A stretch of 64,000 bases of DNA from Terriglobia bacterium (GTDB lineage: Bacteria > Acidobacteriota > Terriglobia > Acidiferrales > UBA7541): positions 62,001 through 126,000 of the forward strand of contig JAIQGG010000006.1 in NCBI GenBank assembly GCA_020072785.1, written 5' to 3'. Each line of letters opens with the position of its first letter. Position 1 is the stretch's first letter. Positions 32,600 to 55,599 of the stretch are shown one piece after another. A program made the position numbers and the translations under genes. The notes under the pieces are model-generated. The model had not been told where the DNA came from. It searched no databases and saw nothing but the letters and a program-made list of their open reading frames with translations.

Positions 32600-32613
32600 G
32601 GTGAGGTGAACCC
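32600..32613. repeat. 14-base direct repeat, left copy (GGTGAGGTGAACCC)
   Basis: Identical to 41312-41325 in the same orientation. The two copies lie just inside the two ends of the 9-kb kdp island, which suggests they belong to the integrated element. Confidence 0.5.
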
Positions 32614-32618
32614 TATTC

Positions 32619-33743: not shown

Positions 33744-33793
33744 ATCTCTCTTCTCGTCGGCAGAACACGCAAAAGCTAAGTTACAATGTAGCC

Positions 33794-35961: not shown

Positions 35962-35974
35962 TTGAGATGCTCCC

Positions 35975-36547
35975 TTAGTGAAGCGGATGGCGCTGATCCA
36001 ATTCGAGATTCAGCTCCAGCACATTTACGCGCGGCTCGCCAAGAAACCCGAGATCGCGATCTTTTGTGTGTTTCTTCACTAAACCACGCACCTCGTCCTC
36101 TTTAATACCGCGTGCGCTGGCCACGCGTGGAATCTGGAACTCCGCGGCCGCAGGAGAGATGTCCGGGTCCAGACCAGATCCCGATGTCGTCACCAGGTCC
36201 ACCGGAATCGGCGCACTCGGATTCTCACTTTGGAGCTTTTGCACGTCGCTTTTCACCCGGTCAAGCAGAGTCTTGTTCGTGGGAGCCAGATTGGAGCCGC
36301 TGCTGGCCGTGGGATCATATCCAGTTCCGGCTGCAGACGGCCGCGGGTGAAAGTAGCTGGGGCTGGCGAAGGCCTGGCCGATGATTCTGGAGCCTACGAG
36401 TTTGCCGTCCTTTTCGATTAGTTGTCCGTTCGCCCGGTCGCGGGAAAAAAGCTGTGCGAGGCCCGTGATTCCGAGCGGGTAGAGGAGACCGAAGATCACG
36501 GTTGTCACCAGCGTGAACCACACGGCGATGAGAAGGTTCTTCTTCAT
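35975..36547 (-). CDS. kdpC: K+-transporting ATPase subunit C
   Basis: 190 residues with one N-terminal TM helix (about 7-30) and the conserved periplasmic domain (FHPRPSAAGTGYDP, SGSNLAPTNK, LVTTSGSGLDPDISPAAAEFQIPRVA). KdpC stabilises the KdpABC complex and influences ATP binding. It is the last gene of kdpFABC, 9 bases after kdpB. Confidence 0.95.
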   Translation of the reverse strand: MKKNLLIAVWFTLVTTVIFGLLYPLGITGLAQLFSRDRANGQLIEKDGKLVGSRIIGQAFASPSYFHPRPSAAGTGYDPTASSGSNLAPTNKTLLDRVKSDVQKLQSENPSAPIPVDLVTTSGSGLDPDISPAAAEFQIPRVASARGIKEDEVRGLVKKHTKDRDLGFLGEPRVNVLELNLELDQRHPLH

Positions 36548-36556
36548 AAGTTCCTC

Positions 36557-38605: not shown

Positions 38606-38612
38606 AGACACC

Positions 38613-40385: not shown

Positions 40386-40387
40386 GA

Positions 40388-40477
40388 TCAGAACTCCTCC
40401 GCCTTCAGGAGGGCGTAGAGCAAATACCCAAAGAGAAGGGCGCAAATGATCAGCAACACCGCATTACCTGCATTCAT
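40388..40477 (-). CDS. kdpF: KdpF small subunit
   Basis: 29-residue single-helix protein, [20 protein letters not shown] followed by YALLKAEEF. The Leu-rich helix and the GYLxYALxxAExF ending are those of KdpF, which stabilises KdpABC. It lies directly before kdpA, with GGAGCGAGCCA as translation signal. It is easily missed because of its size. Confidence 0.88.
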
Positions 40478-40487
40478 TGGCTCGCTC

Positions 40488-40574
40488 CTACCTCAGCCGT
40501 TCGCACCCGCGAACGTAGAGAATGGCTACTCCGACAAACAGCGCCGTCGCGACGATGAAAATGACGTCTAGCAT
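40488..40574 (-). CDS. 28-residue membrane peptide upstream of kdpF
   Basis: MLDVIFIVATALFVGVAILY followed by VRGCERLR. One hydrophobic helix and a short basic tail with a Cys. An excellent ribosome binding site (AGGAGGAG) lies about ten bases before the ATG at 40574, and the stop is 10 bases before kdpF, so it is a genuine translated gene in the kdp operon. Similar tiny proteins with a VRGC-type ending occur before kdpF in some bacteria, from memory. Function unknown; likely a Kdp accessory peptide. Confidence 0.7.
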   Translation of the reverse strand: MLDVIFIVATALFVGVAILYVRGCERLR

Positions 40575-40611
40575 GATTGTTTCTCTCCTCCTGACGATGT
40601 GCACTTCACGG

Positions 40612-40797
40612 CTAACGACGCTGTCGAGAGCCTTTCGGAATCATAGTGACCAAGCGCACTGACTGCGCCCCCTGGAGTTTCGAGTTAGAACCCTGTCGAT
40701 GAGCTCTATTCGTTCGCTTTGACTCGCGGAAAAACTGAACCAACGCGTACAACATGAACGCAAGACCAAAGCCCGCGAAACTTATGAAGACCCACAT
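40612..40797 (-). CDS. Small membrane protein at the head of the kdp operon
   Basis: 61 residues: MWVFISFAGFGLAFMLYALV and QFFRES form one TM helix, followed by a basic, Ser/Gln-rich tail. GAGGGCG lies just before the ATG at 40797; a GTG at 40839 with AGGTG upstream would add 14 hydrophilic residues. It points the same way as and lies 37 bases before the 28-residue gene, so it would be the first gene of the kdp transcript. I do not recognise the family; coding status is likely but not certain. Confidence 0.55.
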   Translation of the reverse strand: MWVFISFAGFGLAFMLYALVQFFRESKRTNRAHRQGSNSKLQGAQSVRLVTMIPKGSRQRR

Positions 40798-40883
40798 CGC
40801 CCTCAGATCCTTTTCTTTCGCTGGGCCGCCCTTGTTCACGGTTCACCTGGCGGGTATCCGCCCATGGCTCCAAGCTTCACCTG

Positions 40884-40927
40884 CGACACGTAAAGAAGTC
40901 CTGATGAAGTCGTAAGGATTTCATAAA
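40884..40927 (-). promoter_or_regulatory. Candidate KdpE-binding region: four 11-base direct repeats
   Basis: Read on the minus strand: TTTATGAAATC, CTTACGACTTC, ATCAGGACTTC, TTTACGTGTCG in direct succession. The 11-base period, a little over one helical turn, and the TTTA(T/C)G start of the outer units are what an OmpR-class dimer such as KdpE would contact; the E. coli KdpE site is likewise TTTAxxC-rich. It lies about 90-130 bases before the first small gene of the kdp operon. Not proven. Confidence 0.4.
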
Positions 40928-41311
40928 GTTTCTTTTGCCCTTGGCTGTGCCTGTCTGCCAACGTTCGGTCTCGACACAATTCATTGAATCGAAACCAAGC
41001 GTGACTCCGCGAAGGCCGGGTGAAGACGGTACAGCCTATTGAGCGATGGTTTCTAAATGATTTCGGCAGGTGAAGACTTAGGATGAGGTGTCCGCAGCGT
41101 GTCTGAAACGATGCTTCCTGGCTGGGAACGGGCTAATCCCACCCCTACAAGACATTATCTGCCCGGTCCCTGCCCGCGCCCTCTGCCGTCACAGGCTACC
41201 TCAGTCCGATTTGGATTCACTTGAAGAAATTTTTGCCAGCGAGCGACACATTTTCCTTCCTCACCGCTGATTAGGTAGATAGAGGAGTTGTTCTCCCCTC
41301 ATTCTCCTGCT
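40928..41311. other. Non-coding end of the kdp island
   Basis: About 380 bases, AT-richer than the surroundings, between the kdp promoter region and the right end of the island. A plus-strand frame of 60 codons (41088-41270) shows no protein-like features. I see no recombinase remnant. Confidence 0.4.
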
Positions 41312-41350
41312 GGTGAGGTGAACCCCTAAGCTGGCACAAATTGGCACAGA
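41312..41350. repeat. 14-base direct repeat (right copy) and TTGGCACA tandem repeat
   Basis: GGTGAGGTGAACCC at 41312-41325 repeats 32600-32613. It is followed at 41332-41350 by CTGGCACAAATTGGCACAG, two TGGCACA units with a 10-base period, about 30 bases from the tRNA fragment. The layout (short tandem units beside a tRNA-derived core) parallels the left junction. Confidence 0.45.
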
Positions 41351-41376
41351 CAGTTCATTGAAAATAAGGAAGTAAG

Positions 41377-41421
41377 TGGTCGGGGCGTCCGGATTTGAAC
41401 CGGGGACCTCCTGCGCCCAAG
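41377..41421 (-). repeat. Partial tRNA-Pro 3' end: attachment site between the two islands
   Basis: 45 bases matching the 3' part of tRNA-Pro (55523-55599) with one mismatch at 41388, same orientation, including the CCA. It lies between the kdp island and the catabolic island. With the copy at 32447 and the intact gene it divides the region into two tandem islands of about 8.9 and 14.1 kb. The single mismatch suggests this copy came with a different element or is older. Confidence 0.88.
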
Positions 41422-41888
41422 CCAAGCGTGCTATCTCTGGGAAGTCCTTCCTTTTCAGTCTTACTTCGGAAAGCAAAGGATTTAGCTAAAGAATTTGGTA
41501 GTGGCACGATGTGCGAGGATGTGCCTCCGCATGCATGGAGTCCCCACACTTTTCCCCACAGCGAATGGGAAGTGAAAAACCATCCGAACGATTCTAGATT
41601 CCAAGTGAAATCAATCCTGCTGTTCTGAATCGAAGGGTAGCAATAATATACTGCGATTATATAACGAAAGCGTACTGTGGTAATAACAAAGCAAGCGATT
41701 TAATTTTTCAAGACCGCCGGTTTCAACCGCTCACCCACTCCTCCGTTTTTAATTCTTGCGTATTCTGCGATTTAGCGGCCAATTTGCTACAGTGCGGATT
41801 CGAACTGCTGCATTTTGATGCAATGTACGGGCAGCTTCTTCTTCGATTGCCCAGCAATATTTAGCAAAACCTCGGGAGATTTCCGCGC
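41422..41888. other. AT-rich non-coding stretch at the right end of the catabolic operon
   Basis: About 470 bases downstream of the acyl-CoA ligase gene with no credible gene on either strand. Clearly more AT-rich than the rest of the window (for example around 41640-41720), as expected for the ruins of an integration module, but no integrase fragment is recognisable to me. Confidence 0.45.
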
Positions 41889-43430
41889 TCACCCTTCCAA
41901 GTATTTTACGCGGAGTTCGCGCTTTGACAGCTTGCCGGCCGAGTTGCGCGGCAGCTTGTCAACGAAGTCCACGCTCTTAGGCGCTTTGACGCTCCCCAGC
42001 CGCTGCTTGCACAACGCGATGATTTCTTCGGCGGTCACCGCCGAACCGGCATTCAGCTCCACCACGGCTTTTACCGCTTCGCCCCACTTATCGTCAGGCA
42101 CGCCGATGACAGCGCAGTCGCGAACCGCCGGATGGCTGTTGACTACTCCCTCGACCTCGGCGCTAAACACGTTGTAGCCTCCCGTAATGATCATGTCTTT
42201 TTTTCGGTCGGTAATATGCAGGTAGCCTTCGCGGTCGAAAAATCCCACGTCGCCGGTGTGCAACCAGCCGTCTATGATGGTCTCCGCCGTCTTCTGCGGG
42301 TCCTTGTAGTAGCCCTTCATCAGGATGTCGCCGGCCACGCAGATCTCGCCCACCTCGCAATCCGGCAAAGGCCTGTTCTTGCTGTCCAAAATCGCGCATC
42401 GCACTAGAGGGTAGGGGCGCCCGCAGGAAGAAAGGCGCGAGTCGGGGGCGATCTCTCCGTTAATGAAGTGTTCTTCGGGAGCAAGGTAGCTGATCGTGCC
42501 CGGGGCTTCGGTTTGGCCGTAGCCCTGCATCATCACCGGCCCAAAAGTCTTGATGGCCCTCCGCAGCTTTTCCGTTGACATAGGCGCTGCGGCATAAATG
42601 AAATAGCGCAGGGATGAATAATTTCGCTGGTTGATACCGGGCAGATCCAGTAGTCCGTAGATTACGGTGGGCGGCAGGTAGAGCTCGGTGATGCGATATT
42701 TTTCGATTGCGTCCAGGAGCGGTCCCGGTTCCAAGCGCGGAAGGATGACTACAACACCGGCCCGCACCGAGGTCACCAGCGTCATGATTCCGCTGGCGTG
42801 CGTAAGTGGCGCCGCCGCCAAATTGACCGGTCGTTGGCCAACCGGGTATGGCATTGCGGCCAGCCAACTGGCTACCAAGGTCTGAATGGCGCGATGCGTG
42901 TTCATCACCCCCTTGGGTTTGCCCGTTGTGCCACCCGTTGGTTGCAAACAACAGACGTCCTCCATGGCGTATTCGACAACCGGCGGCAAATCCGGTTTGT
43001 CGGCAATCCAGCGATCCAGTGACAACCCCCCTTCCCATTCGCCGTCGATGCAGATGTACTGGCGCACCTTCGGCAGCTTCGGGCGGAGGCTCGCCACCAC
43101 TTCGCTGAACCGTCGCTGAAAGAACAGCACCTCGCAGTCAAAGGCATCGAGGATATAGCCGTTCTCCTCGGCAGAGTTGCGGGGGTTGATTGGGACCCAC
43201 GTTAAGCCGGCACGCCAGATGGACAGGGTGCACAGCCAGCCCACTGCATCGTTGCTAGCCCATACCGCGGCATGTGTTCCCTTTCTGCAGCCCAATGCGA
43301 GGAGCCCGTTGGCAACGCGATAGCTGAACCGCTGCGCCTCCCGGTATGTGAAGCGGCGCTCCCCGAAGATCAGATAATCACTGTCTGGAGCGATTCGGCA
43401 GCCACGATCAAAATAGTCAATGATTGCCAT
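41889..43430 (-). CDS. Acyl-CoA ligase (AMP-forming)
   Basis: 513-residue member of the ANL superfamily, activating a carboxylic acid to its CoA ester through an acyl-AMP. Motifs: PTGGTTGKPKG (P-loop, near 165), YGQTEAPG (A5), GWLHTGDVG (A7), DRKKDMIITGGYNVFSAEVE (hinge and A8), and the catalytic Lys in SAGKLSKRELR. The family pattern is that of fatty- or aryl-acid ligases; the substrate cannot be told. It is the last gene of the minus-strand catabolic cluster, 156 bases after the SMP-30 gene, and may make the CoA ester used by the thiolase and mutase upstream. Confidence 0.88.
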   Translation of the reverse strand: MAIIDYFDRGCRIAPDSDYLIFGERRFTYREAQRFSYRVANGLLALGCRKGTHAAVWASNDAVGWLCTLSIWRAGLTWVPINPRNSAEENGYILDAFDCEVLFFQRRFSEVVASLRPKLPKVRQYICIDGEWEGGLSLDRWIADKPDLPPVVEYAMEDVCCLQPTGGTTGKPKGVMNTHRAIQTLVASWLAAMPYPVGQRPVNLAAAPLTHASGIMTLVTSVRAGVVVILPRLEPGPLLDAIEKYRITELYLPPTVIYGLLDLPGINQRNYSSLRYFIYAAAPMSTEKLRRAIKTFGPVMMQGYGQTEAPGTISYLAPEEHFINGEIAPDSRLSSCGRPYPLVRCAILDSKNRPLPDCEVGEICVAGDILMKGYYKDPQKTAETIIDGWLHTGDVGFFDREGYLHITDRKKDMIITGGYNVFSAEVEGVVNSHPAVRDCAVIGVPDDKWGEAVKAVVELNAGSAVTAEEIIALCKQRLGSVKAPKSVDFVDKLPRNSAGKLSKRELRVKYLEG

Positions 43431-43586
43431 CGTTCGCTCCGCTCCCCAGGTATGCGCGGGGAGAACTACTCTCCGGCAAGGAGGAGAGCTTGCCCCCAGT
43501 TCTAGACAGTCCAGATTTCGGTCGGCGCCCGTTTGAAGTTGGAGCCCACAATTCCTTCTTGCTTCTCAACTTCATCCCGCACTCCG

Positions 43587-44537
43587 CTACTGATAGTTAA
43601 GGCGAAGACCCGGCCTAGGCCAGTCGAACGCAGCTAGCCGTCCCGTGGCCAGCAGTGTGACATAGGCCGTTTTCAGATTCTTGCCGCCGAAGCAGAGGTT
43701 GGTGGGAGCCATATCCGGCATGGGAATTTTCTGGTACGCGCCATTGCGCGGATGAAAAACGGTTAGGATGCCGGCCCCAGGAGTTGCGACTACGACATAG
43801 CCCGCCGAATCCAGCGCCAAGCTATCAAAAAAAGCCATCCCGTCCGGGCCGCCTACGAAATACCCGCCGTGCTCGGGGAAAGGACTGGGGGAACGCTTGA
43901 TTTCACCAGGGCCGGCAATTTCGAACTTGTAAAGATGGTGCGTGAACGACTCTGCTACATAAAGCCAATTTCCATCCGGCGAGAGTCCGATACCGTTGGG
44001 GCCCATGAACGGTCCCATCACTTCGCGAATCAAGCTGCCATCCGCCTTGGCGTAAAAGACGCTGCCACGGTCAACGTTGCGCGGGCGCATGCGGCCAAAA
44101 TCCGTGAACCAGAATCCACCCTGGGCATCGAAGACCAGATCGTTGGGACCGGTCAGGCCCAGCTCACCGGCGGCTTCGTATAGCATCTCGACCTTGCCGG
44201 TATCGAGATCGAAACGCTGAATGTATCCCCGTGCCTCGGGGTCATTCGGCTCATCCTCTTGAACGGGTAAGAGCAAGTCGCCGATCTGGCGCCATCGCGA
44301 AGAACCACGATTGCAAACGTAACATTTGCCGTCTGGACCGAGGGCTAAGCCATCCGGCGTACCTCCGGTCACCGCCGCCACAACTTTGCTGCCGTCGGGC
44401 ATGACACGGGTCACGCGCCCTTCGGCCATCTCGCAGACTAATACACTGCCATCGGCAAGCGCCACCGGCCCTTCTAAGCCGCGCAAGCCATCTGCAAGCA
44501 CGCGATAATTCTTGATCTCTTTTCCTTTGTGCTTCAT
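43587..44537 (-). CDS. SMP-30/gluconolactonase-family hydrolase
   Basis: 316-residue six-bladed beta-propeller of the SMP-30/LRE family, Ca- or Zn-dependent lactonases and related hydrolases. Seen: LEGPVALADG with the metal-binding Glu, TGPNDLVFDAQGGFWFTDFG with the Asn/Asp ligand region, and GPNGIGLSPDG with another metal-site Asn. No signal peptide. GAGG precedes the ATG at 44537. In this operon it could open a lactone intermediate. It starts 97 bases after the thiolase gene. Confidence 0.85.
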   Translation of the reverse strand: MKHKGKEIKNYRVLADGLRGLEGPVALADGSVLVCEMAEGRVTRVMPDGSKVVAAVTGGTPDGLALGPDGKCYVCNRGSSRWRQIGDLLLPVQEDEPNDPEARGYIQRFDLDTGKVEMLYEAAGELGLTGPNDLVFDAQGGFWFTDFGRMRPRNVDRGSVFYAKADGSLIREVMGPFMGPNGIGLSPDGNWLYVAESFTHHLYKFEIAGPGEIKRSPSPFPEHGGYFVGGPDGMAFFDSLALDSAGYVVVATPGAGILTVFHPRNGAYQKIPMPDMAPTNLCFGGKNLKTAYVTLLATGRLAAFDWPRPGLRLNYQ

Positions 44538-44634
44538 ATCGACCTCTTACTCCCAAGTAAATGGTTGCGCCGGTGAAATGCTTGCCGCAAGCCTCACAGC
44601 CTGCTTTGGCGGACGCAGTGTACGTCCGGGTCTC

Positions 44635-45906
44635 TTATTTCCCCAGGATATTTACGCAAGCTGCGGCTTCTTCGACGCCGTAGAATCCGCCGCCGTTTGC
44701 AGCGATTGCCAGACGCGCACCAGGAACCTGCCGGGTGCCGGATTCTCCACGCAGCTGGCAAGTCAGTTCGCAGATTTGGGCGATGCCCGTGGCACCCACC
44801 GGATGTCCCTTGGATTCCAGTCCTCCGGAAACATTGATGGGAATCCGCCCGCCCAAGCGGGTAGCGCCGCTTTCGGCAAGCGCCCCTCCCTCACCAACTC
44901 CGCAGAAACCCAAACATTCGCTCTGCAGGATTTCGCCGAAAGCGGTGGCATCGTGCACCTCGGCTACGGACATATCTTCCGGACTCAAACCGGCCTGCTC
45001 GTATGCCTGCACGGCGGCGCGCCGAGCAATGTGCTGGTCGAACTGGCCCCATTCCCGTTCAACCCCACTGGCCAAGACACTGGCCAGAACTTTGATTGGC
45101 CGGCTCTTGGGGAACCGGCACAGCGCCTCTCGGCTGCACAGTAAGATCGCAGCTGCGCCGTCGCTTATGGGCGAGCACATGGGCAAGGTGAGCGGCCAAG
45201 CGACAGTCTTGGCTGCCAAGACCTCTTCAACTGTCATGGGGTGGCGGTATTGTGAGTGTGGATTGAAGACGGAGTGTTCGTGGTTTTTCGATGCCACTAT
45301 CGCCAGTTGGCGTTCCGTCAGCCCAAAGGTTTTCATGTGATACTTGGCAATAGCGGCATAGACGTCGAGAAACACGCTCTTCAGCTCCTGGTCTTTAATT
45401 CCAGGCGGCGGCGAAACTCCATCTCCCAAAGCGAGCAACCGGGCGACTATCTTGTTGGACTCGTGAACATCCCAGCCACCGGAAAATACGGAGAACGTTT
45501 TTTGCTTATCAGCGCTGTACATCTTCTCGCAGCCCACCGCGAGCGCCACATCGGCAATTCCGGCTTGGACATAAACGCAGGCCAAATGGAAGGCGGTGCT
45601 CCCGCTGGCACAGGCGTTCTCCACATTGGCAATGGGGACGCCGTGAATTCCCATAGCGCGTAACGCAATCTGCCCTCGCACAACACTCTGGCCTTCCAGA
45701 ATGCCCTGGGTGGCGTTTGCAAAGAATGCCACGCCGATCGGCTCGCTCCCCGAACCGGCGTCGGCGAGAGCCTCCGTCACAGCTTGCCTCGTGAGGTCCT
45801 TCACCGTAAGGTTCTCAAGTTTACCAAACGGCGTCATGCCAATACCGGCCACATACACCCGGTTTATCGGTAAAGTCCTGTTACCCAATCCATTGCTCCT
45901 TGCCAT
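44635..45906 (-). CDS. Thiolase-superfamily protein (SCP-x / lipid-transfer type)
   Basis: 423 residues with thiolase fold. The nucleophile Cys99 sits in ENACASGS, the catalytic His in AEVHDATAFGE and in SGGLESKGHPVGATG. This is the non-decarboxylating SCP-x-like branch, which includes thiolases and retro-aldolases of sterol side-chain and related degradation; no DUF35 partner gene is adjacent. It would release acetyl- or propionyl-CoA from a 3-oxoacyl-CoA. The start overlaps the end of the B12-subunit gene, so it is the same transcript. Confidence 0.85.
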   Translation of the reverse strand: MARSNGLGNRTLPINRVYVAGIGMTPFGKLENLTVKDLTRQAVTEALADAGSGSEPIGVAFFANATQGILEGQSVVRGQIALRAMGIHGVPIANVENACASGSTAFHLACVYVQAGIADVALAVGCEKMYSADKQKTFSVFSGGWDVHESNKIVARLLALGDGVSPPPGIKDQELKSVFLDVYAAIAKYHMKTFGLTERQLAIVASKNHEHSVFNPHSQYRHPMTVEEVLAAKTVAWPLTLPMCSPISDGAAAILLCSREALCRFPKSRPIKVLASVLASGVEREWGQFDQHIARRAAVQAYEQAGLSPEDMSVAEVHDATAFGEILQSECLGFCGVGEGGALAESGATRLGGRIPINVSGGLESKGHPVGATGIAQICELTCQLRGESGTRQVPGARLAIAANGGGFYGVEEAAACVNILGK

Positions 45907-45908
45907 CC

Positions 45909-46310
45909 CTACTCGCGCACATGTTCATGAATGAAAGCTGTAATTTCTTGGATCGTGGTACCCGGCCCGAAGATGGCCTTGAAACCCGCCGCTTGCAACA
46001 ACGGGATATCTTCGGCTGGAATCACTCCCCCGCCGATAAGCAGTACGTCGGTCATTCCCGCTTCTTTCAACAGTTCTGCGACACGGGGAAAGTGGTATTC
46101 GTGCGCGCCAGAAAGACAACTGAGTGCGACGACATCCGCGTCCTCTTCGATGGCAGCCTGCACAATCAGTTCTGCGGGCGTTCGAATGCCGAGATAAATG
46201 ACCTCCATGCCGGCATCCCGAAGTCCCAACGTGAGTACGTGCGCTCCACGATCGTGGCCATCCAGTCCCGGTTTCGCCAGCACCGCTTTGATTGGTCTTT
46301 GTCGCGTCAT
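45909..46310 (-). CDS. B12-binding small subunit of acyl-CoA mutase
   Basis: 133 residues equal to the C-terminal cobalamin domain of methylmalonyl-CoA mutase. KPGLDGHDRGAHV carries DxHxxG, with His19 as lower axial cobalt ligand; SCLSGAHEYHFP, GGGVIP and FGPGTTIQE complete the Rossmann-like core. The ATG at 46310 gives the usual short N-terminus; an ATG at 46334 overlapping the large-subunit stop would add eight residues. Two bases separate its stop from the thiolase start. Together with the large subunit it forms a two-chain mutase like HcmAB, IcmAB or archaeal MCM. Confidence 0.92.
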   Translation of the reverse strand: MTRQRPIKAVLAKPGLDGHDRGAHVLTLGLRDAGMEVIYLGIRTPAELIVQAAIEEDADVVALSCLSGAHEYHFPRVAELLKEAGMTDVLLIGGGVIPAEDIPLLQAAGFKAIFGPGTTIQEITAFIHEHVRE

Positions 46311-46333
46311 AAATTTGCCCCGGCGCAGGGCCA

Positions 46334-48004
46334 TCAGCGATACTCGCCGTAAACCTCACGCAGGGCGTTGCAGACTTCCCCCATAGTTGCGTACGCGCCT
46401 ACCGCTTGGAGCACAGGTTCCATGACGTTTGTGCCCATCCGGGCTGCCCGTCGCACCTGCTCAAGTCCCTTCTCCACTGCGGCACAGTTCCGTTTGGCGC
46501 GCAAACAACGAACCTTTTCCACCTGCCGAGCCTCTTCTCTCCGGTCCACCCGAGTAACCTCGATAGGTATGGTCTCGTTCATCTGGAACTTGTTGACGCC
46601 GACGACTGTGCGGTCGCCGGAACCCACCAGGGTGGATTGCCGGTATGCTTCTTTTGCAATATGTCCAATCTGATAGCCCTGCTCGATGGCAGCGACCGCA
46701 CCACCCATTGCTTCTATTTCGTCGAATAATTTCATTGCGCGCTGTTCCAGTTCGACGGTCAGCGATTCCAGGTAATACGACCCGCCCAGAGGATCCGCGG
46801 TTCCCAGCAGACCACACTCGTTATGAACGATCTGCATGGTCCGCAGTGCCAGGGTGGCACTCTCCTCGGTTGGAATGGACAATGCCTCGTCCATAGTCGC
46901 AATGTAGGTGGCTTTAGCGCCGGATAGTACTTGAACAAGCGCCTGGATAGTGCCGCGCACAAGATTGTTCCGCGGTTGCTGGGCGGTGAACAAGCTGGCT
47001 TGGGAACCACAGGTAAGCGTCATGGCTAGAACGCGAGGGTTGGTTGCGTCAAACCGCTCTTTCAGCATTCGAGCCCACATGCGCCGAAATGCTCGATGCT
47101 TGGCAACCTCTTCGAATAGGTCGAGTCCCGCCACGAATAAACTTCGGGGAAGTGGAAGCTCGTCAACGCTTAGTCCTCGGTTCACGAATTCCTGTACGTA
47201 GGCTGCGGCGTTCGACAGGGTGAAAGCGATCTCATGGACGGCGCTGCCGCCGGCTTCGCGAATGTGATATCCGCAATAAAGGATGGGCACCATGAACTTC
47301 AGGTGGCGCTTGGCTACGAACTCCATACAATCGACGCTGAGCTTGAGACCTGCCTTCGGCGGAAATATCTGGGTGCCGCGTGCAAAATATTCTTTCAGCA
47401 CATCATTTTGAACCAGGACCTTTATCTGCTCGAGAGAAACGCCTTGCTTCTCACCCGCCGCAATAATCATGGCAAGCATAACCACACTATTGGCGTTCGC
47501 CTGGGCGCCTACGAAGACCTTGTCCAGCGGAATGCCTTCAAAGATGACTTCCACATCGGCCAGGGAGTTGATGGGGCAGCCAATCTTGCTGACTTCCCCT
47601 TTGGCCAAAGGGTGATCGCTGTCATAGCCGATTTGCGTGGGCAGATCGGGAGCAATGATCAGTTCCTTGGCCCCCTGCGCCAGAAGGTGCTTGTAGCGGG
47701 CATTGGTCTGCTCCGCCGTGGGGCAGCCGGAATAGGCGTAAATGCGGGGCGGAGCGCCGCGATACATAGTGGCGTTGTCACCCCGAGCAAATGGGAACTG
47801 ACCAGGGAAACCCAGGTCCCGCGTGTAATGCAAGTTATCCGTATCTGAGGGCGTGTACACGCGCTGCACCGGAATTCCAGAATATGTCTCGAACCGATTC
47901 GTCCATTCTCCGGTGACGGATAGTTCCGGTTCGAGACACTCCTTCTGCCAGGTTTGTTGAGCGCAGCGAATGGCCGCATCGTCACTGTCGTGCGGCTCTT
48001 TCAT
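46334..48004 (-). CDS. Large (substrate) subunit of B12-dependent acyl-CoA mutase, atypical
   Basis: 556-residue TIM-barrel subunit of the methylmalonyl-CoA mutase family. Tyr246-His247 (GYHIREAG), Gln199 and Arg209 (VQNDVLKEYFAR) match Tyr243, His244, Gln197 and Arg207 of Propionibacterium MCM, and Tyr91 matches Tyr89. But the CoA-binding Thr85 and Arg87 are replaced by Arg87 and Tyr89 (PPRIYAYSGC instead of PWTIRQYAGF). Retention of Tyr and Arg argues for a carboxyacyl substrate, as in MCM, and against isobutyryl- or 2-hydroxyisobutyryl-CoA; the altered loop argues for something unusual. The ATG at 48004 lies just after the E1-beta stop. No MeaB-type G-protein chaperone is nearby. Confidence 0.85.
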   Translation of the reverse strand: MKEPHDSDDAAIRCAQQTWQKECLEPELSVTGEWTNRFETYSGIPVQRVYTPSDTDNLHYTRDLGFPGQFPFARGDNATMYRGAPPRIYAYSGCPTAEQTNARYKHLLAQGAKELIIAPDLPTQIGYDSDHPLAKGEVSKIGCPINSLADVEVIFEGIPLDKVFVGAQANANSVVMLAMIIAAGEKQGVSLEQIKVLVQNDVLKEYFARGTQIFPPKAGLKLSVDCMEFVAKRHLKFMVPILYCGYHIREAGGSAVHEIAFTLSNAAAYVQEFVNRGLSVDELPLPRSLFVAGLDLFEEVAKHRAFRRMWARMLKERFDATNPRVLAMTLTCGSQASLFTAQQPRNNLVRGTIQALVQVLSGAKATYIATMDEALSIPTEESATLALRTMQIVHNECGLLGTADPLGGSYYLESLTVELEQRAMKLFDEIEAMGGAVAAIEQGYQIGHIAKEAYRQSTLVGSGDRTVVGVNKFQMNETIPIEVTRVDRREEARQVEKVRCLRAKRNCAAVEKGLEQVRRAARMGTNVMEPVLQAVGAYATMGEVCNALREVYGEYR

Positions 48005-48005
48005 C

Positions 48006-49010
48006 TCATCCCGCTTGGGCATATTTGGAACCAGCCGCCAAGGCGGCGCGGACCCCTTCGATGACGTTCTGGGGACTTGGAGCAAGTAACTTCATCAAAT
48101 CCACCGAGCGTGCAAATGGAACATGCGGCATCCCAAGCCGGATGATTGGCGCCTTCAGCTCGTGAAATAACTCCTCGGAAACAAAAGCCGCGATTTCGCT
48201 GCCCGTACTCCCTTGTTTCCAGGTCTCCTGGGCAATCACGAGCGTCCCTGTCTTTTTTACCGACTCTCGAATTGCTTCGCGATCGAAGGGGACCACCGTT
48301 CGCAAGTCCACCACCTCTACATCAATGCCTTCTTTGCTCAGTTCTTCGGCGGCGCTCAGTGCGTGATTAACCATGTTGCCGAAACCTACAACAGTAACAT
48401 CTTTCCCCGGGCGCTTGACCTCGGCTACGCCGATGGGGATGAGGTACTCTTCATCCGGGATTTCACTGCGCTTGCCGGTACAAATGGCCAAATGATCGAG
48501 GTACACCACCGGGTTATCGTCACGAATGGCGGATTTCATCAATCCCTTGGCGTCATAGGCATTGGAGGGAGCGACGACTTTGACCCCGGGAATGTGTTGC
48601 AGCCAGGCGTGGTAATCTCCCGGATGGCCGCGAGTCACCCCAACGCCATAGCGGGCCCGCACCACCATCGGCACCGTGAGCGTGCCTGCCGAAAAGTAAT
48701 AAGCGCTGCCCGCGTCCACCGCCAAGTGCCCCATGATCAGCGCGAGGAACTCTGAAAAGAGGATGTCGCAGATGGGGCGCATGCCGGTCATGGCCGCCCC
48801 TATACAGGAGCCTATGATGACGAGTTCGGACATGGTGACGTCCACCATGCGCTCCGGAAATTCCTTCTCCATGCCGGTGTAGGCTTGGTAGGCTTGGATC
48901 CCCTGGTGACCCACAATTTCTTCTCCGAGCACGAAAACGCGCTCGTCGCGGCGCATCTCCTCACTCATTGCCTCAATCAGCGCTTCATTGGAAGTAAGCC
49001 GTTTTGCCAT
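48006..49010 (-). CDS. 2-oxoacid dehydrogenase E1 beta subunit
   Basis: 334 residues, the transketolase-type pyrimidine-binding domain followed by the C-terminal domain (VTMSELVIIGSCIGAAMTGMRP, GVKVVAPSNAYDAKGLMKSAIRDDNPVVYLDH, DLRTVVPFDREAI). With the alpha subunit it makes a thiamine-diphosphate enzyme that decarboxylates a 2-oxoacid or splits acetoin and transfers the acyl group to lipoate. AGGAG lies before the ATG at 49010, four bases after the alpha stop. It is close in pattern to AcoB/PdhB types; the substrate is open. Confidence 0.9.
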   Translation of the reverse strand: MAKRLTSNEALIEAMSEEMRRDERVFVLGEEIVGHQGIQAYQAYTGMEKEFPERMVDVTMSELVIIGSCIGAAMTGMRPICDILFSEFLALIMGHLAVDAGSAYYFSAGTLTVPMVVRARYGVGVTRGHPGDYHAWLQHIPGVKVVAPSNAYDAKGLMKSAIRDDNPVVYLDHLAICTGKRSEIPDEEYLIPIGVAEVKRPGKDVTVVGFGNMVNHALSAAEELSKEGIDVEVVDLRTVVPFDREAIRESVKKTGTLVIAQETWKQGSTGSEIAAFVSEELFHELKAPIIRLGMPHVPFARSVDLMKLLAPSPQNVIEGVRAALAAGSKYAQAG

Positions 49011-49014
49011 GATG

Positions 49015-49971
49015 TCAGCTCCTGCCCACTGCATAGACGAGTTCCGGCCGCAACTCCTCGGGCCCGGGTGGCGGATCGCTTTTCGCCTGGGCAATCGCGG
49101 CGGTGACTTCGCTGGCCGCCTGCTCGTGAATGGACTTGATATCGCCGTCGGTAACCAGTCCTTCCGCCTTGAGGCGATTCTCGAATACCAGGATGGGATC
49201 TCGCTCGCGCCAGTGACGGCGCTCCTCCTGGGGCTGATAGGCGGCGGGATCGGTTGTCCAGTGCCCGCTGACGCGATAGGTGAGCGCATCGATGAGCGAC
49301 GGACCTTTCCCGGCGCGCGCGTGAGCAACCGCTTGCATTAGGGCTGCATTCACCGCTTCCACGTCGTTCCCGTCGGCAAGAATCCCGGGCATGCCATAGC
49401 CAATGGCCCGGTCTACAATGCGCCCTGCGGTGCCGCGCTCCGCGGACATGGAAATGCAAAACTGATTATTCTGGCAAATAAAGACTGCGGGTAATTTCAG
49501 GACGCCGGCAAGGTTCAACGATTCGTGAAATTCTCCCTTATTAGCGCACCCATCGCCGAATACCACCACGGCAACTTCGTCGGTCTTCCTGAGTTTCGCG
49601 CTCAGAGCGGCGCCGGCGCCGTAGGTGATGGTAGTTCCCAGAAAGCCTCCCATAGTGCTGAAGTTCTTGGGTTCGGCTCGGCCCCGCACCTCGGAGAAAA
49701 ACCGCCCGCGATCGTACGCCGTAACTTTTCCCAGGACGCCGGCGACGAGCCGGTGCATGGAAGCGCCGCGCACCAGATTTGCCGCCAAGGCCCCGCGGTA
49801 ATGGGGGATGTAAACGTCGTCGGGCCGGAGACCGAAGGCGCTGCCCACCACAACCGCCTCTTCGCCGACAGCGCTGTGAAAATAGGGATGAAAGCTTATG
49901 ATGCCATTTTCCAGCTCCCGGGCGCGCACGAGCGCGCGATAGAGCGATAATCTCGTTTCATTCGATGCCAT
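49015..49971 (-). CDS. 2-oxoacid dehydrogenase E1 alpha subunit
   Basis: 318 residues with the thiamine diphosphate motif FGDGCANKGEFHESLN...ICQNN (GDG to NN). YIPHYRGALAANL and SGHWTTDPAAYQ are family segments. AAGGA precedes the ATG at 49971. It lies between the lipoyl gene (16 bases upstream) and E1 beta (4 bases downstream). An acetoin or 2-oxoacid substrate is possible; no E2 catalytic domain or dihydrolipoyl dehydrogenase is encoded in this operon. Confidence 0.9.
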   Translation of the reverse strand: MASNETRLSLYRALVRARELENGIISFHPYFHSAVGEEAVVVGSAFGLRPDDVYIPHYRGALAANLVRGASMHRLVAGVLGKVTAYDRGRFFSEVRGRAEPKNFSTMGGFLGTTITYGAGAALSAKLRKTDEVAVVVFGDGCANKGEFHESLNLAGVLKLPAVFICQNNQFCISMSAERGTAGRIVDRAIGYGMPGILADGNDVEAVNAALMQAVAHARAGKGPSLIDALTYRVSGHWTTDPAAYQPQEERRHWRERDPILVFENRLKAEGLVTDGDIKSIHEQAASEVTAAIAQAKSDPPPGPEELRPELVYAVGRS

Positions 49972-49987
49972 CGTGAATTTCCTTTGT

Positions 49988-50230
49988 CTAAAGTGATGTT
50001 CCTTGAATTCTCGCAACTACGGCGTCCTCCGCCGCAAATTCGTCCACGGGAACCAGGATCTCGGTGATCACGCCGTCGGAAGGCGCTTCGATTTCGAAGT
50101 TCACCTTCTCCGTCATTATCTCCACGATGCTCTCACCGGCTCGCACACTGTCACCGGCTTTCTTGTGCCAGTAAACTACCTTTGCCTCTACCGATCCATG
50201 TCCAAGTTTTGGGATCTTGATCTCGATCAT
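49988..50230 (-). CDS. Stand-alone lipoyl-domain carrier protein
   Basis: 80 residues forming a single lipoyl/biotinyl beta-barrel (IPKLGHGSVEAKVVYWHKK, GDSVRAGESIVEIMTEKVNF, PSDGVITEILV). Lys42 in TEKV is at the hairpin tip and is the expected lipoylation site. In normal complexes this domain is the N-terminus of E2; here the protein ends after the domain and no acyltransferase follows. First gene of the operon, with AGAGAG before the ATG at 50230. It presumably accepts the acyl group from E1 alpha/beta. A biotin carrier is less likely because the MKM motif is absent. Confidence 0.85.
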   Translation of the reverse strand: MIEIKIPKLGHGSVEAKVVYWHKKAGDSVRAGESIVEIMTEKVNFEIEAPSDGVITEILVPVDEFAAEDAVVARIQGTSL

Positions 50231-50362: not shown

Positions 50363-50518
50363 TCATACCCGCCGATCTGTGGCCGCTGAGAGCTTGGCCT
50401 TCAGAAGGAGGGTCGCAGCGGCAATCCTATCGTAGGAGGGCCACTGCTCGAAATCTTCCGGGGTCTTCGCCGCCTGGTCCCGAGTAACCAGCGCCACCTT
50501 GCCGGACAGACCAAACAT
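50363..50518 (-). pseudogene. Remnant of a short-chain dehydrogenase N-terminus
   Basis: A 51-codon frame beginning MFGLSGKVALVT, the classic start of short-chain dehydrogenases (first beta strand before GASxGIG), with GGGAG just before the ATG at 50518. After VTR it changes to RDQAAKTPEDFEQWPSYDR, unrelated to the NAD-binding loop, and stops. It looks like a gene start fused to foreign sequence by deletion. The flanking 50231-50362 and 50519-50584 hold nothing else that I can recognise, apart from the presumed promoter of the lipoyl operon. Confidence 0.5.
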
Positions 50519-50584
50519 CGCTCTCCCACCATAGTGTCTCTTTGCATTCTGCCGGATCAGCCACTCGCTGTACGCTGTGATCCC

Positions 50585-53500
50585 TCAGAAGTTGTACTTC
50601 AGCGCGAACTGGATCAGCCGCGGCGATACCGCAGTGGAATTGATCACCCCGAAACCAGGGGAACCCACGTCCAGAGACGGATTGTCGAACTGCGGATGAT
50701 TAAAGGCATTGAAGAACTGCACTCGAAACTCCACGTTCGTTGCCTCGGTGAATCCCTTGACTTTGGTGATTTTGGCCAAGGATATGTCCCAGTTGTTCTG
50801 ATCTGGCCCCCTCAGCGCACCACGGCCAATGTTGCCGTAGCCGGTGCCATCCCCAATCGCAGGCGGGGGGCAGATTGCGTTCGTGTTGATATAGCCATTC
50901 AGCCGTGATTGCACGCTGCCGCTTGTGACCAAGCTGGCATTGCTGGCCCCGGGACAGAAGTTGGCGGGCATATAGAAAAAGCGCGTAAGGCTGGCCCCAT
51001 AGATGGATCCGGCCCGCGCGTCCACCAGCGTGAGAGGATTCCCGCTTTGGATCGTGGTGACACCCGAGACCTGCCAGCCTCCCAGCAGTTTGCCCCAAAG
51101 GCCTGTGCCCCCGTGGACGTTGGAAAAACTGTAGAGATAGCTCAGCACCAGGCGCTGCGGGCGCGAGTATTCTGCTGGGCCGCGGCCGTCGCTCACCATT
51201 CTTTGCGAAATGCCCCCGTACAGGGTGCCGATGGAAGCATTTTGAGAAACTACCTGGTTGTCCAGGATTTTGCTGAATGTGTAGGTGGCCTGAATTTGCA
51301 GTCCGTGGCTCATACGCTTGCGCACGGTCGCTTCCAGTCCATGGTAGGAACTCGTTCCCGCCGTCTCGGTGGCACGCAGGCCGTCCGGCGTAAAGCCCAC
51401 GATAGGTACCCGCATCCCGACGTTCTCAACCGTGTTGGTCGTTTCGCCATTTATGGGGTGCTGCGGGCTGGCCAGTTGTGCCTGGTTCAGTTCGGTCAGC
51501 TCCAGTAGCCGTGTACCGTGCGAACCAACATAACCAAGCTGGGCCATTACGCCACCCTTAAGCTCGTACTCGAAATTCAGGCTCCACTGCTGTGCCATCG
51601 GCGAATCAAAATCGGGTGCCAGAACCACCGTAGACATATTGCTGCCTACTTGCCGAGGTGTCCATATGGGAAAGGCGCTCGCAGGCGGCGGCGCGGGGTT
51701 GAACGGCTGCTGCAAACTAGCCAGGGTATTTGCCGGCCCGCTCAATTGGGAGAGGACGAAATAAGGCTGCGCCAAGCTGGTGCCAAAGATCCCACTGGTG
51801 CTGGTGCGGGAGTAAAAGACGCCATATCCAGCATGGACCGCGAAGTTCTGATTGCCGGCGATGGGACGCCACGCCAGACCGATACGGGGAGCGACGTTGT
51901 GCAGCGGGGTTCCACCGGCTAACGTGCTCTTGTTATCGCTCCGCGTTACGCCTGTGGGTATAGTGCCCGGAAAGTTCGAGGCCACTACGAATCCGCTGAA
52001 GGTTCCACCGGGCGGTGGGACGGGATCTGCCAGTGCCGGGTTGAAATTAGTGATCAACCCATTGATTTCCGAGGCAGGCCCGTTAACTTCCCAGCGAAGA
52101 CCGACATTCAGCGTGAGCTGCGGGTGCAGCTTGTAATCGTCCTGGAAGAACAAGGACCAGTCGTTGATCCGGCGGTGCCGGGCCACTGTTCCGGAGAAGC
52201 CGACGGACACTAACAGGTTGCTGAACGGGATGCCGGTCGTGTTTCCGGGGTTAAAGGGATTGCAAGTGGCCGGAAAGGTGCCGGGGGGGCAGCCGGGCAA
52301 GCCCAGCAGGAAGTCGGGGAAACTGGGAAGCACCACGAATCCGCGTTCCACTCCGTCGGCATTGTCATTTTGACGGATGCGCTCGAAGCCGAACCCCGCG
52401 CGCATGTTGTGCTTGCCCTTCGTCCACGCAATCTGGTCGGCAAACTGAAAGTTTTCAGCGGCTGTCTTTTCGCCGTCATTGATGTCCGCGCCCAATGAAA
52501 ATAAGCCCGGCATGGCGATGGAAGGCATTTCGCTCGACATCGGGCCTGGCTGCATCCCCACCTGTTGGGCGCTTAGCGGCGCTCCACTCTGGGTAACGCC
52601 AACATTGCGAATGAAGCTGAAACGGCCTTCGTTCACGAAGTTGTTCGTAAGAATCGAAGTGAGTTTGGCGGTCAGGGTGTGGTTGCGGAAAGCGCCGAGC
52701 GGGCCGTTCCCGGGAACCGCGTTCAAGTTCTGTATGAGGCTGGACTGGGGGAAACCCAGCTTTTCGTCATCCCAACCGGAAAACCAGTGCGCGCTGAAGG
52801 TGTGCTTCGCCGAGATCGCGTAATCAACGTTCTCGATCATCTGGTCCTCGGAAAAACGGGAGGGCACACTATAGGTGGACATGCCCAGGCCATTGACGAT
52901 GATTTGCGGCGTGGGGATGTAGTAGCTGCCGTCGGGCAGTTTGAATTGGAGCAGTGTCAGGGCCACGGGATTGATGTTGCTGCCGTCCGCCAGAATCGCC
53001 GGGCCCACGCCCCCGAACAGCATCTGAAACAAACCGCGCTGCCCCGCGAATATCGCGCCCAGCGACCCGGCGGAGCGGTCGTTGGTGAGCGGCGGCAGGT
53101 TGATGCTGCGCAGCGAAGAAGCCCCCAACCCGTTCACCTGACGGGTGCCTTGGTAGGAACCGAAGAAGAAAAGCTTGTTGCGTTTGACCGGCCCTCCCAG
53201 CGTAAATCCAAACTGGTTCTGTTTCATCACCGGCCGCGGCTGGCCGTTGCGGTTGAGGAAGAAATCGTTGGCGTTAAGCACGTCGTTGCGGAAATACTCG
53301 AAAACCGCACCGTGGAAATCGTTGGTGCCGGACTTGGTCACCACGTTTACATTGGCGCCCATGCTCCTGCCCGAGCCGGCGTCGTACTGCCCGGTCTGGA
53401 TATTGAACTCCTGGATGGCATCCGGATTGGGGACGGGGATTCCACCGAATGCCGTGGTGTCCCCGGCACGGCCACTGTAGGAGTTGTTGATCTGGGCGCC

Positions 53501-54082
53501 ATCCATCTGGTAGTTGTTGTCCAGCGTAGTTCCGCCGTGAACGTATACATCCTGGGTGTTGCGTCCCACCTCCGCGGCGTTCGTGAGGCTGGCCGTTACC
53601 CCGGCCGACAGGTGCAGCATCTGGGTGTAATTGCGGTTAGTCAGGGGAATATCCCTGAGATCATTTTCGCCAATCAGTTGGCCAAGCGATGAGGTCTCCG
53701 TTTGGACCTGCAACTGATCGGCCTTCACCTGGATGATTTCGCTCCTCATACCTATTTGCAGCGAAGTGTTGACGATCGTCGTTTCCGACACGTTCACCCT
53801 GAGGTCGGTCCTCTTGACAGTCTTGAAACCCGAGATGCTGAATTCGACGGAGTACTTGCCGGGTGGGAGCAACGCAAAACGAAATACGCCGTCCGTGTCA
53901 GTCACCACAGTACGTCGCGCGCCCGTTTCTTGCTGGAGCAACACGACGGTCACACCCGGCAGCACTGCACCTTGGGAGTCGGCGACCGTGCCGGAAAGCG
54001 CGCCGGTAGCCGAGGTTTGTGACAACAATGGCAGCGAGAACAAGACCGCCGCTAGCAGCGAAGCCGTGACTGGTCTGAGCAT
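50585..54082 (-). CDS. TonB-dependent receptor-like outer-membrane protein with CarboxypepD_reg domain (Oar-like)
   Basis: 1165 residues. Signal peptide about 1-22 (ending LLSQ), a carboxypeptidase-regulatory-like beta-sandwich at about 28-115 (ATGALSGTVADSQGAVLPGVTV), a plug domain (MDGAQINNS, TGQYDAGSGRSMGANVNVVTKSGTNDFHG) and a large barrel ending in QFALKYNF with C-terminal Phe. This architecture is abundant in Acidobacteria and resembles Oar of Myxococcus. AGGAG precedes the ATG at 54082. Same strand as the catabolic operon and next to the IclR regulator, so it likely imports the substrate or an oligomer of it. No TonB box was verified. Confidence 0.9.
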   Translation of the reverse strand: MLRPVTASLLAAVLFSLPLLSQTSATGALSGTVADSQGAVLPGVTVVLLQQETGARRTVVTDTDGVFRFALLPPGKYSVEFSISGFKTVKRTDLRVNVSETTIVNTSLQIGMRSEIIQVKADQLQVQTETSSLGQLIGENDLRDIPLTNRNYTQMLHLSAGVTASLTNAAEVGRNTQDVYVHGGTTLDNNYQMDGAQINNSYSGRAGDTTAFGGIPVPNPDAIQEFNIQTGQYDAGSGRSMGANVNVVTKSGTNDFHGAVFEYFRNDVLNANDFFLNRNGQPRPVMKQNQFGFTLGGPVKRNKLFFFGSYQGTRQVNGLGASSLRSINLPPLTNDRSAGSLGAIFAGQRGLFQMLFGGVGPAILADGSNINPVALTLLQFKLPDGSYYIPTPQIIVNGLGMSTYSVPSRFSEDQMIENVDYAISAKHTFSAHWFSGWDDEKLGFPQSSLIQNLNAVPGNGPLGAFRNHTLTAKLTSILTNNFVNEGRFSFIRNVGVTQSGAPLSAQQVGMQPGPMSSEMPSIAMPGLFSLGADINDGEKTAAENFQFADQIAWTKGKHNMRAGFGFERIRQNDNADGVERGFVVLPSFPDFLLGLPGCPPGTFPATCNPFNPGNTTGIPFSNLLVSVGFSGTVARHRRINDWSLFFQDDYKLHPQLTLNVGLRWEVNGPASEINGLITNFNPALADPVPPPGGTFSGFVVASNFPGTIPTGVTRSDNKSTLAGGTPLHNVAPRIGLAWRPIAGNQNFAVHAGYGVFYSRTSTSGIFGTSLAQPYFVLSQLSGPANTLASLQQPFNPAPPPASAFPIWTPRQVGSNMSTVVLAPDFDSPMAQQWSLNFEYELKGGVMAQLGYVGSHGTRLLELTELNQAQLASPQHPINGETTNTVENVGMRVPIVGFTPDGLRATETAGTSSYHGLEATVRKRMSHGLQIQATYTFSKILDNQVVSQNASIGTLYGGISQRMVSDGRGPAEYSRPQRLVLSYLYSFSNVHGGTGLWGKLLGGWQVSGVTTIQSGNPLTLVDARAGSIYGASLTRFFYMPANFCPGASNASLVTSGSVQSRLNGYINTNAICPPPAIGDGTGYGNIGRGALRGPDQNNWDISLAKITKVKGFTEATNVEFRVQFFNAFNHPQFDNPSLDVGSPGFGVINSTAVSPRLIQFALKYNF

Positions 54083-54145
54083 TCCCCACTCTCCTGCGAG
54101 ATTCGCATCTCTTTTACGCACGGCTCAGGGGAGTGTCAAGACGGG

Positions 54146-54248: not shown

Positions 54249-55106
54249 TCAGGCTTGGTGAGCGTAGTGCACAACTGGTAGTTCGAGGATGCGTCCGACG
54301 CCGGGAAGGCAGCGTCGCGACATATCAGACAAGAGTCCCACTCCTTCTGCCGAGAGCTGGTCGGGATGGTTCAGCTGCTGCATTAGCATCTGTGCCGCTT
54401 CCTTCACCGAGGCCCCTATCTGCGGCAACCTCTCCTCGCGTATATGGCCAACAAATCCGGCCACACCGATGCAACCTTTCAAATGCCCGCAAGGTCCGAA
54501 GACCGGGGCGGAAACGAAGCGCAGTCCGTGGATGGTTCTTCCATCATCCACCGTGTAGCCCTGTTCTCGGATCTGTGCGAGTTCCTCCATAAGATGGGAC
54601 AAGTTGCTAATCTTGATCGGCACACGGCGCATCAGCTGTTGCTGCTCCAGCTTGGCGAGCACTTCCGGCTCGGCACGGTAGGCCAAGGAGAGTTTGCCGC
54701 AGGGCGAGGGATGAAACTCATTCTGAGAAATTTTCCAGTTCTCCGGTCTCATGTCCGGCAAAGAGCAATGCAAGATCCAGCCAGAACTGGCCAAACCAGT
54801 GCTGAGATGAGTTTGCTCCGTAAGCCACATTAGAACGGGAATCGCCAATCGCTTGATGCGCTTCTCGGTCAAGGATTGGCCGAAAGTTGCCATTTTCATG
54901 CTCAGCCGGTAGCGCCCGTCTTCGGCATCTCGCAGCACGTAGCCCTGTGACTCAAGTGTCCGCAGGATGTACCAAGCAGACGTTTTGGGAATCCCCAGGC
55001 GGCGGGCAATCTCACGGCAGCTCATTCTGTCGTGTTCACCAAAAGCTTCAACGATCGCCAGCGCGCGCGCCACCGCTCGCGACGTGCTCTTGTTTTCAGA
55101 ACGCAT
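54249..55106 (-). CDS. IclR-family transcription regulator
   Basis: 285 residues. N-terminal winged helix (ARALAIVEAFGEHDRMSCREIARRLGIPKTSAWYILRTLESQGY) and C-terminal IclR effector domain (about 85-265) with the usual CGKLSLAY and GYTVDDGRTIHGLRFVSAPVFG segments. It lies directly upstream of the receptor gene on the same strand, followed by the catabolic operon, so it is the likely regulator that senses the substrate or its CoA ester. The ATG at 55106 is used, with GGGGTGG upstream; a GTG at 55118 is possible. Confidence 0.88.
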   Translation of the reverse strand: MRSENKSTSRAVARALAIVEAFGEHDRMSCREIARRLGIPKTSAWYILRTLESQGYVLRDAEDGRYRLSMKMATFGQSLTEKRIKRLAIPVLMWLTEQTHLSTGLASSGWILHCSLPDMRPENWKISQNEFHPSPCGKLSLAYRAEPEVLAKLEQQQLMRRVPIKISNLSHLMEELAQIREQGYTVDDGRTIHGLRFVSAPVFGPCGHLKGCIGVAGFVGHIREERLPQIGASVKEAAQMLMQQLNHPDQLSAEGVGLLSDMSRRCLPGVGRILELPVVHYAHQA

Positions 55107-55238
55107 GATCAATTCCACCCCGGCTTGATGAGACTCGTCTAGCCCGGCCGGCGGCTACATTGCCGTATAGAATCGCAGGGAACATATCACAACAAATTCG
55201 CCGTCGCAAGTGAGCGTATCGCGGGTATCAGGTTCAAT

Positions 55239-55259: not shown

Positions 55260-55522
55260 CTACACCAGGTCGATGAGGATAGAGATGCGCGAGGTCCCCG
55301 CAATTTTCCCCACACCCACAAGACGACCTACTCTCAACTTACGTTAATTCAACAATTTCTGAAATTGATCTTCCGGCCATTGCGTTTTTGCATCGACAGC
55401 GCGCAGCGAAGTTGTGGGAATTGAACGGCTTGCGAAAACAAACCTCCTGTCTAGGAGAAATCCACAAGAGCAGTGACAGCAAAGTGAGCGTTGCTAAACC
55501 ATGAGAAACAAAACTCATAAAT
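55260..55522. other. Intergenic region between the IclR gene and tRNA-Pro
   Basis: No gene seen. It holds a perfect 15-base palindrome CAATTTCTGAAATTG (55353-55367). The final part borders the tRNA 3' end and should be the right-hand junction of the catabolic island. The TTGGACCC or TTGGCACA repeat types of the other junctions were not found here. Confidence 0.5.
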
Positions 55523-55599
55523 TGGTCGGGGCGCCCGGATTTGAACCGGGGACCTCCTGCGCCCAAGGCAGGCGCGCTACCAGGCTGCGCTACGCCCCG
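55523..55599 (-). tRNA. tRNA-Pro (anticodon TGG), intact
   Basis: 77 bases fold as a complete cloverleaf: acceptor CGGGGCG/CGCCCCG, D stem GCGC/GCGC, anticodon stem CCTGC/GCAGG with loop CTTGGGC (anticodon TGG), T stem CCCGG/CCGGG with TTCAAAT, discriminator A and an encoded CCA. It is the integration target: its 3' 45-47 bases recur at 41377 and 32447. The intact copy lies at the core-genome side, next to nth. Confidence 0.97.

Follow-up and report, generated by a model that had tools for sequence, protein, structure and literature searches.

An operon of eight genes lies on the minus strand of the window, by which we mean the entire stretch of 64,000 nucleotides analyzed here (Terriglobia bacterium, contig JAIQGG010000006.1, positions 62,001 to 126,000; genome of 3.73 Mb in 11 contigs, 98.9% complete), and it places a free lipoyl carrier and an E1 dehydrogenase beside a B12-dependent acyl mutase. 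The first gene encodes a stand-alone lipoyl protein of 80 residues (49988..50230; PF00364, Biotin_lipoyl, E=3e-18), whose predicted lipoyl-Lys42 sits inside the lipoyl motif MTEKVNFE and which also matches the acetoin dehydrogenase E2 model PRK14875. It is followed by the thiamine diphosphate (ThDP)-binding E1 alpha (318 residues; 49015..49971; PF00676, E1_dh, E=2e-71), nearest to the PDH_E1_alph_x type, and by E1 beta (334 residues; 48006..49010; PF02779 and PF02780, Transket_pyr/Transketolase_C; PDB 1um9_B, E=9e-66). Next come the large, TIM-barrel chain of the mutase (46334..48022; PF01642, MM_CoA_mutase, E=1e-162) and its B12-binding small chain (45909..46334; TIGR00640, 136 bits, above the cut-off; PDB 2yxb and 4r3u_C), in which the DGHDRG motif is intact. 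The remaining three genes encode an SCP2/archaeal-type thiolase (44635..45906; PF22691 and PF00108, Thiolase_N/Thiolase_C_1; PDB 6hsj, E=1e-63) with its nucleophilic Cys, HD and GHP motifs all intact, an SMP-30/gluconolactonase-type hydrolase (43587..44537; PF08450, SGL, E=8e-40) and an AMP-binding acyl-coenzyme A (CoA) ligase (41889..43430; PF00501, E=1e-74; PF13193).

A first-pass annotation of this DNA had already claimed an operon of these eight genes, and each of them is found where it was placed, far over the curated Pfam cut-off of its family. The same annotation held that the operon lacks both an acyltransferase (E2) and a lipoamide dehydrogenase (E3), and this is borne out, the only E2-related match in it being the Biotin_lipoyl domain of the 80-residue protein. 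Pyruvate and branched-chain 2-oxoacid dehydrogenases resemble the operon in their heteromeric E1 alpha/beta and in a lipoyl domain with the lipoyl-lysine motif. In contrast to those complexes, the lipoyl domain here is a free protein, and the operon has no E1-binding domain, no acyltransferase domain and no E3. Among NCBIfam models E1 alpha is best matched by TIGR03181, with a score below the cut-off, and models of the pyruvate dehydrogenase type score best. The absence of the GGSMH segment from E1 alpha was considered as the mark of a new E1 and rejected; Bacillus-type E1 alpha, the nearest by NCBIfam, is not known to carry this segment either.

The gene junctions are tight. With revised starts at 49971 for E1 alpha and 49010 for E1 beta (the 440-residue E1-beta open reading frame in the program's list is overlong), E1 beta overlaps the gene for the mutase large chain, which starts at 48022 or 48004. 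The large and small mutase chains overlap by 1 nucleotide (TGATG), and only 2 nucleotides separate the small chain from the thiolase. These overlapping or adjacent starts suggest that E1 beta, both mutase chains and the thiolase are translationally coupled. Gaps of 97 bp before the SMP-30 gene and 156 bp before the ligase gene could accommodate a separate transcription start for these two genes. The operon leaves no gap for a gene encoding a DUF35 partner of the thiolase (the rest of the genome was not searched for one) and contains no alpha/beta hydrolase, its hydrolase being of the SMP-30/SGL type.

The whole operon recurs, in the same order, in one sister species of the same genus (genome G563), with about 95–97% DNA identity per gene. 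Between the two species, ratios of nonsynonymous to synonymous substitution (dN/dS) range from 0.09 to 0.24 across the genes, with the thiolase best conserved (0.09), the lipoyl protein at 0.13 and the mutase large chain at 0.14; the last contains no frameshift. Because order is kept in the sister species and dN/dS stays in this range, the operon is neither a chance assembly nor a product of decay. By these comparisons it is functional and conserved as a unit, but narrowly distributed. Mutase orthologues (E ≤ 1e-160) occur in 2 of the 89 genomes of the family and in 2 of the 399 genomes sampled in the class, where the next E1 alpha is at most 43% identical. The unit is thus present in another genome, but in that one sister species only. 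In a phylum sample of 396 genomes, no further genome with a mutase relative above 51% identity was among the matches listed, and plasmid searches gave no mutase relative above 60%. A wider contig scan returned ordinary mutases among the matches listed, and we draw no inference from it on orthologues outside Acidobacteriota.

The sister operon starts with an intact short-chain dehydrogenase/reductase (SDR) gene, located between the lipoyl and receptor genes (L142 10216-11001). The window retains a 51-bp remnant of this gene at 50484..50534 on the minus strand (blastn, 77% over 52 columns), with flanks that align at 91–95%. A further candidate explanation of the lipoyl gene itself, as a broken E2, was ruled out: it is a separate small open reading frame in the sister species as well, with the dN/dS given above.

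Analysis of the mutase reveals a conserved fold with an altered pocket. The AlphaFold (AF2) model of the large chain has a predicted template modeling score (pTM) of 0.88, with confidence falling at residues 121-139 and 371-380. It superimposes on 2-hydroxyisobutyryl-CoA mutase (Hcm; 4r3u) with a VIA-align Z of 48.4, a root-mean-square deviation (rmsd) of 1.9 over 548 residues and a template modeling (TM) score of 0.93, and on the human mutase 2xiq with Z 46.9 and rmsd 2.2 over 530 residues. The enzyme shares with methylmalonyl-CoA mutase and Hcm this fold, the separate large and small chains and the DxHxxG motif of the small chain. It also retains, in alignments, Tyr110, Arg228 and His265 (human numbering), which are substrate contacts in human methylmalonyl-CoA mutase (PMC11988910). 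Because Tyr110 and Arg228 are retained, the acyl chain of the mutase substrate probably bears a carboxylate-like or polar group.

Its best homologue is only 51% identical, and several conserved motifs differ from those of both known enzymes. The WTMRQ segment, which reads W-T-M/I-R in every homologue compared, is PRIYA in the window mutase, and this altered motif is identical in the sister species. Arg108 lies within W-T-M/I-R; its change to Cys causes severe human disease and, in simulation, distorts the substrate tunnel (PMC11988910). Two ordinary mutase-family paralogues in the same genome, on contigs C1 and C2, carry the canonical motif. GLSVAFD is likewise changed to ELIIAPD, and other residues stand in place of the HxQT and GGTQSLHTN segments. 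Several of the changed positions (96-99, 106-110, 216-218 and 304-306 in human numbering) are expected, from database annotation of the human enzyme, to bind CoA. Across 113 homologues including the human enzyme and Hcm, the mutase departs at 48 of 161 columns conserved to at least 96%, against 1 for the median homologue, 30 for the human enzyme and 24 for Hcm, in a set dominated by one bacterial enzyme type, which inflates the departures of the latter two and, to some extent, those of the window protein.

These departures include adenosyl-side segments, and together with the two stretches of reduced model confidence they are what a degenerate or non-catalytic mutase, altered under relaxed constraint, would look like. 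We regard such degeneration as highly improbable, given the dN/dS of the large chain, the uninterrupted reading frame, the retained Tyr110, Arg228, His265 and B12 motif, and the identity of the altered motif in both species. Because selection is maintained, the mutase is best read as a variant whose pocket for substrate or carrier has been rebuilt rather than as a decaying gene. Few B12 acyl mutases are known, and which substrates they accept is still being worked out. The window mutase alters residues fixed in all compared relatives, yet it is under selection and coupled to an E1–lipoyl source of acyl groups; finding its substrate would extend the family by a new carbon-skeleton reaction of B12 or by a substrate not bound to CoA.

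That Hcm is the nearest solved structure raises the question of whether two separate pathways share one promoter, with the mutase acting on a CoA ester made by the ligase as in the catabolism of 2-hydroxyisobutyrate (ligase, mutase, dehydrogenase, thiolase). Ligase, two-chain mutase and thiolase are clustered in both cases, and with the SDR of the sister species the full set for this type of logic is assembled. In contrast to that pathway, the operon adds E1 and lipoyl genes, the E1 beta and mutase genes overlap and the order is kept in both species. The specificity residues of Hcm, Ile90, Asp117 and Gln208, are moreover replaced by Tyr, Ala and Arg. The roles of these three residues were reportedly described by Kurteva-Yaneva in 2015. 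We consider two independent pathways unlikely.

The first-pass annotation had gone on to propose, from the missing E2 and E3, that the acyl group reaches CoA by a non-standard route and would then pass to the mutase and the thiolase in turn. The host genome makes the argument from E2 and E3 weak. It encodes three full E2s (PF00198), on contigs C1, C5 and C9, and a single true E3 at C1:88437, alongside nine E1-alpha-type genes (E < 1e-6). Two of the three E2 clusters themselves lack an E3 of their own, and because three E2s stand against one true E3, the E3 is common to the other complexes of the genome. No dedicated E2 or E3 co-occurring with the operon was seen. What stands of the earlier proposal is that the lipoyl carrier, E1 and the B12 mutase form a conserved unit with translational coupling; the absence of E2 and E3, in contrast, is weak evidence for a non-standard route. 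That annotation had also left out the pocket changes of the mutase, the lost SDR and the tRNA-flanked island described below. The absence of E2 and E3 is ordinary; what is unusual is the mutase, together with its link to an E1–lipoyl unit, in a soil Acidobacterium.

In fact, the pairing of E1 with a free lipoyl carrier recurs elsewhere, and the window operon is one instance of it. Two more lone lipoyl genes in the host genome adjoin E1 alpha/beta pairs, at C2:549693 and C5:107397. The C2 unit (L009 8685-16724) comprises a lone lipoyl gene, an SDR, E1 alpha/beta, another SDR, a thiolase and hydantoinase/acetone-carboxylase-like genes, without an E2. In the C5 unit (L010 3179-9634), the lone lipoyl gene and E1 alpha/beta precede methyltransferase-like, MetE-like and methylene-tetrahydrofolate-reductase (MTHFR)-like genes, and this unit may have a role in one-carbon or aromatic catabolism. 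Of 12 genomes sampled in the genus, two have the window-type unit, three the C5 type and one the C2 type.

Similar units occur on plasmids of Alphaproteobacteria. In Novosphingobium, a small lipoyl protein is encoded on a plasmid together with E1 alpha, E1 beta and SDRs. Rhizobium and Agrobacterium plasmids (L146, L147 and L148; e.g., pRL8 and pAt15955) encode E1 alpha and beta as a fusion (as split chains in L147), a lipoyl protein of 77–78 residues and an alpha/beta hydrolase, in what looks like a split AcoC-type system amid sugar genes. These clusters resemble the window operon in that E1 adjoins a free small lipoyl protein with no acyltransferase, but differ in the fusion of their E1 chains, in their hydrolase and sugar-gene neighbors and in having no B12 mutase. 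In a tree of E1 alpha, the E1s with lone lipoyl genes are dispersed among those with full E2s, which suggests a repeated origin of the arrangement, although the deep nodes are unresolved and long branches cluster together. In the literature searched, we found no description of an E1 with a free lipoyl carrier or of lipoyl proteins with B12 mutases, and no named pathway in which a lipoyl carrier, an E1 and a B12 mutase are combined in this way. We note that intradiol-dioxygenase-like genes lie near the C5 unit, and that one of the Rhizobium/Agrobacterium units adjoins a copy of lipA.

SDRs repeatedly adjoin E1 units with a lone lipoyl protein (in the sister operon, the C2 cluster and Novosphingobium), which brings to mind acetoin dehydrogenase (AcoA, AcoB, AcoC), which likewise pairs E1 alpha/beta with a lipoyl unit without a classical acyltransferase (AcoC/PRK14875 type). 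By analogy, an acyloin formed by the SDR from a vicinal diol would be split by E1 into an aldehyde and acyl-lipoyl, and the other genes would treat the products. The PRK14875 match of the lipoyl protein fits this scheme, as does the alpha/beta hydrolase of the rhizobial units, which is fused in that E2 type. The window operon, in contrast, lacks this hydrolase and has lost its SDR, no acoX or AcoR-like gene was seen, a B12 mutase is present, and E1 alpha is closest to models of the pyruvate dehydrogenase type. We judge an acetoin-like function rather unlikely.

Taken together, we tentatively favor, as plausible though by no means assured, an island-borne catabolic operon that works through an E1-loaded lipoyl carrier, an E2 in trans and a shared E3. 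The SMP-30 hydrolase and the ligase would prepare a precursor, in lactone or acid form, by opening and activating it. E1 alpha/beta would cleave a 2-oxoacid or similar ketone via ThDP and load the acyl group onto lipoyl-Lys42 of the carrier, from which an ordinary genomic E2 core would pass it to CoA in trans, the single shared E3 reoxidizing the dihydrolipoyl group. The adenosylcobalamin-dependent mutase would then rearrange the carbon skeleton of an unusually shaped substrate, and the SDR (lost in the window, kept in the sister species) and the thiolase would finish the conversion to acyl-CoA units. Several points weigh against this scheme. It presupposes a hypothetical substrate and an E2 that would act on a foreign, free lipoyl protein. 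The operon contains no acyl-CoA dehydrogenase or hydratase, which leaves a gap between the mutase product and the thiolase, and the pocket changes are so numerous that the mutase may not accept a CoA ester at all.

For the transfer of the acyl group to CoA, the housekeeping E2 acting in trans is our first choice over the thiolase or any other route. The thiolase could in principle replace E2, its active Cys taking the acyl group straight from the lipoyl carrier and giving it to CoA or condensing it. Its gene is the best conserved of the operon, lies in the translationally coupled block and has its catalytic motifs intact. Its relatives of 59% identity, however, are located on Sulfitobacter plasmids, in ordinary acyl-CoA degradation clusters without E1, and there is no thiolase near the C5 lone-lipoyl unit; such a substitution is quite unlikely. 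The recurring pairing of E1 with a free lipoyl protein raises a general and testable question: where no dedicated E2 is present, by what route is the acyl group taken off its lipoyl carrier?

The mutase could also act earlier, on an acyl group still bound to the lipoyl carrier, whose arm would enter the rebuilt barrel channel, with release to CoA afterwards (e.g., by the thiolase). A carrier-bound substrate would fit both the overlap of the E1 beta and mutase genes and the fact that the otherwise universal channel motif is missing. We consider this very doubtful; if true, it would be a B12 carbon-skeleton mutase working on a protein-bound acyl group.

The genomic setting points to an island. 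Upstream of the operon lie a TonB-receptor-like outer-membrane protein (50585..54121, minus strand; PF25183 and PF13620; dN/dS 0.22), possibly the uptake gene of the island, and an IclR-family protein (54249..55118, minus strand; PF01614 and PF09339), its likely regulator. The gene content of the host, including a receptor of this type, suggests a member of the Acidobacteriota. A tRNA-Pro(TGG) gene predicted by ARAGORN at 55523..55599 on the minus strand marks the right end, and a 60-bp partial copy at 41374..41433 on the plus strand, a 92% direct repeat of 55520-55579, marks the left. A further partial copy of 47 bp, with 100% identity, is located at 32447-32493. GC content is 53–59% across 32–56 kb, changes abruptly at 56 kb and is 59–69% in the rest of the window, and the DNA adjoining the tRNA-Pro gene varies among genomes of the genus. 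No integrase was seen in the island. Because tRNA-Pro repeats, low GC and patchy occurrence coincide, the stretch with the operon was probably acquired by horizontal transfer.

At its ligase end, the island of the window has a 45-bp sequence (41778-41822) whose counterpart in the sister species, 89% identical, lies close to the IclR end (L192 847-891). Between the partial tRNA-Pro copies, a second low-GC segment lies in tandem (32447-41374) and carries kdp potassium-ATPase genes with kdpD/kdpE-like regulators. Further away, at 15440-29909, the translations alone indicate a respiratory cluster with a narG/narH-like nitrate reductase and an alternative-complex-III-like oxidoreductase.

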